A stretch of DNA of 64,000 bases, from assembly GCF_030159955.1 (NCBI RefSeq), contig NZ_BSNK01000001.1:1-64000 (forward strand), written 5' to 3'. The notes beneath the pieces were generated by a model. The model did not search any database, was not told the origin of the DNA, and saw only the letters and a program-made list of their open reading frames with translations. Shown one piece after another: positions 11,491 through 13,971 of the stretch. The translations under genes and the position numbers were made by a program. Source of the DNA: Algimonas ampicilliniresistens (GTDB taxonomy: Bacteria; Pseudomonadota; Alphaproteobacteria; Caulobacterales; Maricaulaceae). Each line of letters begins with the position of its first letter. The stretch's first letter is position 1.

Positions 11491-12465
11491 ATGCGTTTGA
11501 ACGAACTTTCAGACAATCCGGGTGCAACCAAAGCCCGCAAGCGCGTCGGCCGTGGTATCGGTTCCGGCAAAGGCAAGACCGCGGGTCGCGGCGTCAAAGG
11601 TCAGAAATCCCGTTCGGGTGTTTCGATCAATGGCTTTGAGGGCGGCCAAATGCCGATCCACATGCGCCTGCCTAAGCGTGGTTTTAACAATCCAAACCGC
11701 AAGCGTTATGCTGAGCTGTCCATCGCAAACCTCGAGCGCGCGATTCAGGCGGGTAAGATCAAAAAGGGCGATAAGCTCGATGCTGAAGCGCTTGTGCGCG
11801 CTGGTGTGATCCGTCGTTCCAATGATGGTGTACGCATCATCGGGGGTGGCGAGCTGAGCCAAGCGCTGGATCTGCATGTTGCGGGTGCGACTAAGGGTGC
11901 TCAAGGCATCATTGAGGGTGCCAAAGGCTCCATCACGATCGTCGAAGGCAAACCTGAGCGCGTTACGCGCGATGAGGATGCAGCTCCAGCCAAGCCGAAA
12001 GCTAAGCCAGCCGCGAAGAAAGCGGATGTGAAACCTGCTGCTAAAAAAGCAACTGCGAAACCTGCGGCCAAAAAGGCTGACGAAAAAGCAGCGCCTAAAA
12101 AAGAAACAGCTAAGAAAGCTCCGGCTAAGAAGGCAGCGAAAGCTGACGACGCTGAGAGCGAATATCTGGCTAAGACGCGTGAATATGACGCTGACGCAGA
12201 CAATGCGACTGTTACCAAGGTCGAGAAATATCTCGGCGGTTCGCTCGCGAATAAAGATGCGAAATATGTGTCATGCTCTGACGAAACTGAGCTCGACACC
12301 ATCGTCAAAGGCTTCATGAAAAAGAAGCTTGGCGTGGACGACAAGGACGCGGCTCTTGAAAAGGTCAAAGCTGTCTGCACAACCATGAAGCCGACACGGA
12401 TGAAAAACCGCGTCACCTTCTATTACCTGCTGGCCAAGAACGAAGGCAAGCTAGGCGAATTTTAA
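11491..12465 (+). CDS. rplO: 50S ribosomal protein L15 fused to a DUF2853-like domain
   Basis: Residues 1-160 are ordinary L15: the glycine-rich GRGIGSGKGKTAGRGVKGQKSRSG loop is conserved, as is GFEGGQMPIHMRLPKRGF. L15 is usually about 145-165 residues, but this protein has 324. Residues 164-221 are an Ala/Lys/Pro-rich linker of PAAKKAD-type repeats, and residues 222-324 (SEYLAKTREYDADAD ... KNRVTFYYLLAKNEGKL) resemble DUF2853, normally a small separate protein of unknown function. The frame is open throughout and there is no in-frame ATG between the linker and the start of the DUF-like domain. DUF2853 is assigned from remembered family features. Confidence 0.93.
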   Translation: MRLNELSDNPGATKARKRVGRGIGSGKGKTAGRGVKGQKSRSGVSINGFEGGQMPIHMRLPKRGFNNPNRKRYAELSIANLERAIQAGKIKKGDKLDAEALVRAGVIRRSNDGVRIIGGGELSQALDLHVAGATKGAQGIIEGAKGSITIVEGKPERVTRDEDAAPAKPKAKPAAKKADVKPAAKKATAKPAAKKADEKAAPKKETAKKAPAKKAAKADDAESEYLAKTREYDADADNATVTKVEKYLGGSLANKDAKYVSCSDETELDTIVKGFMKKKLGVDDKDAALEKVKAVCTTMKPTRMKNRVTFYYLLAKNEGKLGEF

Positions 12466-12600: not shown

Positions 12601-13971
12601 ATGGTATCAGCCGCCGAACAGCTCGCTCAGAATTTCCGACCCGGAACATTCTTGAAAGCGAAAGAACTGCAGCAACGTCTGCTCTTCACACTCGGCATTC
12701 TGATTATCTATCGTCTTGGGACCTATATTCCCGTTCCTGGCGTCGATCTGGGTGTCTTCCAGGGCTTTCTCGACAGCGGCACATCAGGCGGTTTTGGTGA
12801 TCGTCTGAATATGTTCTCCGGCGGTGCGGTCGAACGCATGGCCGTTTTTGCGCTTAACGTGATGCCTTACATTTCGGCGTCGATCATCATGACGCTGATG
12901 AAGGGCTCCGTCCCCAGCCTCAAAGAGCTTGATAAAGAAGGCCAGCAAGGCCGTCAGCAGATCAACCAGTATACGCGCTATCTCACGCTCGTCCTCGCCG
13001 CGTTTCAAGCGTTTGGTGTGGCCAAGCTGATTGAAAATAGCGGTGCGGCCATTAATCCAGGCCTCTTCTTCCAAACCTCGACCGTGATTACGCTGGTTGG
13101 CGGGACTATGTTCCTGATGTGGCTGGGCGAACAAGTGACGGCACGCGGTGTCGGCAACGGTGTATCGCTGATCATTTTCGCCGGTATTGTCGCGGAGCTG
13201 CCTCGGGCTATCTTCCAAGTCTTCTCTTTGAATAGCTCCTCATCCGTTGTTTCAACGCAGTTGCTCTTATTCCTGATCGTGATGTTTATCGCCCTGTCGA
13301 TGCTGATTGTTTACGTCGAGCGGGCCCAGCGCCGTTTGCTGGTCCAATATCCAAAACGACAAATGGCGCGCGGCCAGCAGTTTGGCGGCGAAAGCTCCTT
13401 CATGCCGCTCAAGCTCAATACGGCCGGTGTGATCCCGCCAATTTTCGCCAGCTCTTTGCTGATCCTGCCGACCACGCTGGCGCCGTTGATGCTGGGCCAA
13501 GACGGTTCCGGAGCGTCCGGTATCGCCACGACGCTGCTCGCAGCTTTGGGTTATGGTCAGCCGATCTATCTCGCGCTCTACGGATTGCTGATCGTCTTTT
13601 TCTGTTACTTCTACGTGCCTTACGTCTTTAAACCGGATGATGTGGCGGACAATCTACGTAAGAATGGAGGGTTCCTGCCCGGTATTCGTCCAGGTGCTCG
13701 CACGGCCGACTATCTGACCTATGTTCTCTCTCGCCTGACCTTTATCGGCGCGTTCTATGTCGCCTTTGTCTGTGTGGTCCCGGAAATCGTGATTGCGCAG
13801 AATGACGGTATCCCACCGTCTGTTGCCATGCTGATCGGCGGGATGAGCTTGCTTATTATCGTCTCGGTGACGCTCGACACGGTCGCGCAAATTCAATCAC
13901 ATTTGATTGCCCACCAGTATGAAGGCCTGATCAAGAAATCTCGAATGCGCCGCAGAGCGAAAAAGAAATAG
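12601..13971 (+). CDS. secY: Protein translocase subunit SecY
   Basis: A 456-residue inner-membrane protein with about ten hydrophobic segments. It starts MVSAAEQLAQNFRPGTFLKAKELQQRL. SecY signatures include GIMPYISASI-like text (here VMPYISASIIMTLM) and the cytosolic loop PKRQMARGQQFGGESSFMPL. SecY forms the protein-conducting channel with SecE and SecG. The gene follows rplO after 135 bp and is followed 19 bp later by adk, the usual alphaproteobacterial order. Confidence 0.97.
   Translation: MVSAAEQLAQNFRPGTFLKAKELQQRLLFTLGILIIYRLGTYIPVPGVDLGVFQGFLDSGTSGGFGDRLNMFSGGAVERMAVFALNVMPYISASIIMTLMKGSVPSLKELDKEGQQGRQQINQYTRYLTLVLAAFQAFGVAKLIENSGAAINPGLFFQTSTVITLVGGTMFLMWLGEQVTARGVGNGVSLIIFAGIVAELPRAIFQVFSLNSSSSVVSTQLLLFLIVMFIALSMLIVYVERAQRRLLVQYPKRQMARGQQFGGESSFMPLKLNTAGVIPPIFASSLLILPTTLAPLMLGQDGSGASGIATTLLAALGYGQPIYLALYGLLIVFFCYFYVPYVFKPDDVADNLRKNGGFLPGIRPGARTADYLTYVLSRLTFIGAFYVAFVCVVPEIVIAQNDGIPPSVAMLIGGMSLLIIVSVTLDTVAQIQSHLIAHQYEGLIKKSRMRRRAKKK

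Follow-up and report, generated by a model that had tools for sequence, protein, structure and literature searches.

The gene for ribosomal protein L15 (uL15) of Algimonas ampicilliniresistens, which we read in a window of 64,000 nucleotides (the whole stretch of DNA analysed), continues in frame beyond L15 into a domain of the uncharacterised family DUF2853. This raises the question of whether such a fusion is genuine and, if so, what a DUF2853 domain does at the end of a ribosomal protein.

Results

The fused gene and its parts

The gene is a single open frame of 324 codons on the forward strand, running from the ATG at 11491 to the stop codon at 12463..12465 with no internal stop. Its L15 core (residues 1–150; 11491..11940) matches TIGR01071 over residues 2–148 with 144 bits, which passes the curated cut-off of 77.95 bits, and PF00828 over residues 76–149. 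The linker that follows (residues 151–221; 11941..12153) comprises 71 residues, is rich in Ala, Lys and Pro and carries a net charge of +11; the figure of 58 residues given in the original prediction corresponds to its Ala/Lys/Pro-rich portion, and its proximal part can be aligned across relatives with different tails. The remaining residues, 222–324 (12154..12462), had been likened to DUF2853, and Pfam bears this out: scanned alone, they match PF11015 with 100.8 bits against a curated cut-off of 25 bits, and in the whole protein the match (97 bits, residues 224–321) covers positions 1–100 of the 101 in the profile, approximately its full length. The sole strong PDB match to this domain by sequence is 2pyq (E 2e-12); a match to 2m7b (E 0.015) was discarded as too weak. 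Profile scans found no HHH match in this L15 protein at E up to 1, and the tail is DUF2853.

In the whole genome the fused gene is the one match to L15, and there are two matches to DUF2853, the L15 fusion and one other. The flanking open reading frames look by eye like ribosomal proteins on both sides, followed by SecY-like and adenylate-kinase-like ones, which marks the locus as a ribosomal protein operon; the next gene in the list of open reading frames, SecY-looking by eye, lies at 12601..13971 on the same strand. Since the genome holds no second match to L15 and the linker is long, we can fairly infer that the DUF2853 domain would be displayed on the ribosome.

The fusion is genuine

We surveyed L15 in related genomes, a check proposed with the original prediction, and found DUF2853 in frame in 25 of the 54 L15 genes read from DUF2853-bearing genera, including those of the named cultured strains Algimonas arctica KCTC 32513 and Litorimonas cladophorae KCTC 23968. 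Because the same fusion recurs in so many related genes, cultured strains among them, and because neither a stop nor a start signal lies between L15 and DUF2853, the possibility that a sequencing error, a frameshift or a chimeric assembly joined two separate genes is ruled out for all practical purposes. The single open frame and the fused relatives together confirm the in-frame fusion as genuine.

Three other origins of the domain product were considered and rejected. Separate translation of DUF2853 would need a start site of its own, but in 40 L15–DUF2853 locus sequences, several of them copies of a single gene, neither the linker nor the first ten domain residues contain an in-frame start accompanied by an SD-like 4-mer. 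A phage origin was dropped, with no phage match and no PHROG for the fused domain. So was a plasmid origin; relatives occur on seven plasmid records, all below 60% identity, and three of them are annotated as 'DUF2853 family protein'.

Distribution across genomes

Among 138 genomes sharing the family code of the window's genome, many of which resemble MAGs, L15 was found in 126, S2 in 132 and L21 in 117; DUF2853 is present in 59, and in eight of the 19 genera (hereafter the branch). The 54 L15 genes read represent seven of these eight genera; the single genome of the eighth gave no L15, one L15 fragment (G129) was left out, and the other omitted branch genomes gave no L15. A scan of named records returned 21 fusion loci, 11 on L15 and 10 on S2, and the S2 fusion is present in the named strain Hellea balneolensis DSM 19091. 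NCBI taxonomy places Algimonas in the Robiginitomaculaceae, Alphaproteobacteria. In a class-wide sample of 385 genomes DUF2853 was found in nine, and in eight of these (all but the window's genome) it occurs only in frames of 106–157 residues, which are too short for a fusion. Within our sample, fusion of DUF2853 to ribosomal proteins is confined to one branch.

L15 and S2 tails as a slot for domains

When tail domains were labelled from phmmer matches at E < 1e-3, the 54 branch L15 genes were found to end in DUF2853 alone (24), HHH together with DUF2853 (1), HHH of type 1 (8) or type 2 (11), or low-complexity sequence only (7), with the remaining three cut by the sequence end; type 1 is called HHH on account of its kinship with other HHH tails. 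S2 was read from 56 branch genes, of which 11 carry DUF2853, 30 HHH and 14 a low-complexity tail, one being cut, and four genomes bear DUF2853 on both L15 and S2. These readings show that the C-termini of L15 and S2 in the branch are a slot for exchangeable domains, which may hold DUF2853, either of two HHH types, both, or none.

L21 provides a contrast between the branch and its sister genera. All 19 branch L21 proteins read are without a tail; 25 further branch L21 genes lie in open frames of 103–151 residues, which are too short for a linker and HHH beyond a core of about 103 residues, and one more match is a fragment. In the eleven other genera of the family, 12 of the 18 L21 genes read carry an HHH tail, five a low-complexity tail, one of these with HHH out of frame, and one no tail to the locus end; the L15 (12 of 12) and S2 (11 of 11) genes read there are without a domain. 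As this contrast amounts to one unreplicated event on the tree, it is suggestive.

Several further tails deserve mention. The S2 of the window's own genome (L170, C1:1387200-1388900) has an acidic linker and an HHH end, so that the two ribosomal subunits of this species would bear different tethered domains. In another family of the order, the HHH tail of the L21 of genome G056 (L228) groups with S2 HHH tails, which may be a sign of L21/S2 exchange elsewhere. The L21 tail of G064 (L274) appears frame-shifted, with HHH in another reading frame, through either an error or a real break. In addition, scans of L074 and L170 pointed to a further class of S2 tail in NCBIfam, the 'sunset domain variant' NF051451; given this class, the use of the S2 C-terminus as a domain slot may be more widespread.

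Tail exchange and selection

On an L15 + S2 core tree of 59 genomes, we counted changes by parsimony over the 46 branch genomes in which L15 and S2 were both read and neither tail was cut. The tail of L15 underwent a minimum of 18 state changes and that of S2 a minimum of 10; these counts take in whole-gene transfer too and come from parsimony without a shuffle control. A tail domain is present on L15, S2 or both in 43 of these 46 genomes and on neither in three. In five of five same-genus pairs with unlike tails (L055, L086 and L059, each against L056; L055 against L051; and L092 against L140), the tail region has been replaced between kept, homologous DNA flanks. Homology spans L15 and the proximal linker for 494–548 bases, is absent from the remaining tail, except in one pair where short pieces of linker match, and returns about 80–140 bases beyond the stop codon, around the start of the next gene (the SecY-looking gene in the window). 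In the case of L055 and L056, a first stretch of 494 bases aligns at 86% and a second of 852 columns at 80%. Two pairs with like tails align throughout.

One explanation of this exchange is that the domains are tolerated passengers: repeat-rich Ala/Lys linkers would recombine and shuffle C-terminal domains, which the ribosome bears unused. The many L15 tail changes, several of them losses to low-complexity sequence, are in line with this, as is the start of the exchanged region in the repetitive linker. However, the median dN/dS of the L15-borne DUF2853 domain is 0.059 (34 pairs with dS < 2), lower than the 0.126 of the L15 core (74 pairs), with 0.183 for the linker (15 pairs); these are simple pairwise Nei–Gojobori values from 84 within-genus pairs among 24 genes, computed for L15-borne domains only, and are rough owing to high synonymous change. 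DUF2853 on L15 is under purifying selection and is maintained as a protein. Retention of a domain on L15 or S2 in nearly all the genomes counted also speaks against an unused passenger, as does the absence of tails from L21 in the branch, though the latter is one tree event. Overall, we regard the passenger explanation as unlikely.

Another explanation is a post-synthesis cut in the linker, by which one gene would give rise to L15 and a free DUF2853 protein. The linker is Lys-rich and relatives have standalone DUF2853 proteins, as such a cut might suggest, but on S2 this domain follows an acidic Ala/Glu/Pro linker, and among the 46 genomes relatives swap DUF2853 for HHH rather than retain a separate product. 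We consider cleavage very improbable.

Descent of the domains and their other hosts

The trees of these short domains were built with FastTree and rooted at the midpoint. In the tree of 92 DUF2853 domains, the copies from membrane proteins, phasin-like proteins and ribosomal proteins form separate groups, and the standalone copies form two. The ribosomal clade, which includes the window's domain, holds 25 L15 and 11 S2 copies with a support of 0.967 and inner supports of 0.72–1.0; its joining with the phasin-like copies (0.454) is unsupported. Ten of the S2 copies form one clade (0.952) and the eleventh lies beside other L15 copies. Because the S2 copies are nested within those of L15, S2 probably acquired its DUF2853 domain from L15. 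In the HHH tree that includes NuoE, type 1 of L15 falls together with NuoE and the membrane protein (0.966); type 2 adjoins the S2 HHH domains (0.906). A descent of type 1 from L21, drawn from a tree without NuoE, was withdrawn, as the addition of NuoE moves type 1 to the NuoE/membrane group. Comparison of DUF2853 with HHH by hhalign, using shallow alignments, found no kinship.

Off the ribosome, DUF2853 is carried by a protein with a membrane segment and coiled coil and by a phasin-like protein, the latter a weak label since its matches to phasin models fall below cut-off. HHH is found on NuoE and on the same type of membrane protein that bears DUF2853. The second DUF2853 gene of the window's genome (L002, around C1:1337576-1338097) is a long frame whose product combines a membrane segment, by eye, a coiled coil, an H1-like (PF07382) linker and, at its end, DUF2853; the open reading frames nearby include two that look by eye like a peptidase M15 and a small phage protein. 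A NuoE-like protein, also named by eye (L317, C1:1412662-1412859), has the HHH tail type seen on some L15 proteins.

Discussion

As DUF2853 fills places like those of HHH, on L15, S2, a membrane protein and phasin-like proteins, the economical reading is that it is an HHH-equivalent, interchangeable docking domain on L15 and S2, to which we assign a probability of about 0.6. The C-terminus of L15 would present DUF2853 on a flexible arm, where it would do the job of an HHH tail, that of a tethered docking domain through which a large assembly is held to a shared ligand. Since three of the 46 genomes have neither domain and seven of the 54 L15 proteins end in low-complexity sequence only, no tail domain is essential. 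The original prediction saw in the fusion a possible case of a factor brought to the ribosome; the domain does sit on L15, but that account was too narrow, since the same slot holds HHH in sister species and DUF2853 also occurs off the ribosome. DUF2853 resembles a docking module that several proteins share and exchange more than it does a single translation factor.

A more specific role, in part that of the original prediction, would be the recruitment by DUF2853 on L15 of a translation-linked protein such as a chaperone, a protease or a membrane or assembly factor, with a different partner for HHH. A neutral domain on a long flexible arm would suit such a recruiter, and so would the presence of DUF2853 on a protein with a membrane segment. 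Nevertheless, the interchange of DUF2853 and HHH on the same two ribosomal proteins suggests an equivalent role, and DUF2853 is present on non-ribosomal proteins; we therefore consider a dedicated recruiter rather improbable.

As to what the docking domain would bind, our best guess, a tentative one made by analogy with the Caulobacter granule protein PhaH, is nucleic acid or the nucleoid. According to a review (PMC13052382), the N-terminal end of PhaH binds granules and its C-terminal end binds DNA nonspecifically through an HHH domain, and a part in granule placement has also been reported. The L15 linkers are basic (median charge +11) and the S2 linkers acidic (median -7), as are the S2 HHH domains (median -6); DUF2853 is close to neutral in its L15, S2 and phasin-like copies and basic (+9) in those of the membrane protein. 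Nucleic acid is the natural candidate, but these charges do not decide the matter: the acidic S2 linkers and S2 HHH domains and the nearly neutral ribosomal DUF2853 lend it no support. The ligand may instead be a shared protein, or the domains may self-associate. In its fullest form, the proposal makes DUF2853 a second docking domain for nucleic acid or the nucleoid, unrelated to HHH and replacing it, in a common tether that ties both ribosomal subunits, storage granules and a membrane protein to the nucleoid or nucleoid RNA and whose ribosomal site differs by lineage (L21, L15 or S2); taken as a whole, it is doubtful.

Few proteins are as conserved as those of the ribosomal core, yet here their C-termini swap whole domains between sister species, and DUF2853 on L15 stays under selection despite the swapping. 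This suggests that bacteria fasten their ribosomes to something through interchangeable arms, and if the ligand were the nucleoid, it would bear on the placement of translation relative to DNA. In addition, HHH offers a known proxy by which the uncharacterised DUF2853 can be put to the test.

Ribosomal proteins with HHH tails are already represented in NCBIfam, whose models of L21, S2, NuoE and PhaH have C-terminal ends that match the HHH tails found here. We scanned six proteins that bear HHH (three L15, one L21, one S2 and one membrane protein), and each matched all five NCBIfam models, mostly in part and below the whole-protein cut-offs; Pfam HHH_5 was above its cut-off in one of the six (L092) and below it in two. 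The window's L15 shares with HHH-tailed ribosomal proteins the long low-complexity linker and the small C-terminal domain but lacks a C-terminal HHH. L21-HHH (NF008915/NF008916, PRK12278) likewise has a basic low-complexity (Ala/Lys) linker before its small domain, and some L15 tails fall into one HHH group with its tail; it differs in its host, L21, which in the branch is tailless, and in its domain, HHH. S2-HHH (NF008966, PRK12311) embodies the same slot idea, and the S2 of the window's genome matches positions 1–330 of the 334 in its profile with 476 bits (cut-off 526). It differs from the L15 fusion in its acidic linker and in having an HHH tail rather than DUF2853, the domain that 11 of 56 branch S2 proteins bear. 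PhaH of Caulobacter crescentus (NF045508) ends in an HHH tail of the family seen here, by partial matches, but is a granule protein, and the phasin-like DUF2853 proteins match phasin models weakly. Standalone DUF2853 proteins (PF11015; PDB 2pyq) belong to the same domain family by sequence match, but are unfused and lie in two tree groups apart from the ribosomal clade. Archaeal eL32 (PDB 9l94 chain Q) likewise belongs to the ribosome and weakly matches the HHH profile (E 0.0005), but it is an unrelated ribosomal protein, and the match lies near its N-terminus (residues 7–58). In the literature searched, no L15–DUF2853 or S2–DUF2853 fusion and no L15 tail swap was listed, and a single paper (PMC3595295) mentioned DUF2853, as a table entry. 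As far as we have searched, three things are new relative to these known systems: DUF2853 serves as a tail of this kind, it and HHH have repeatedly replaced one another on L15, and L21 stands in contrast.
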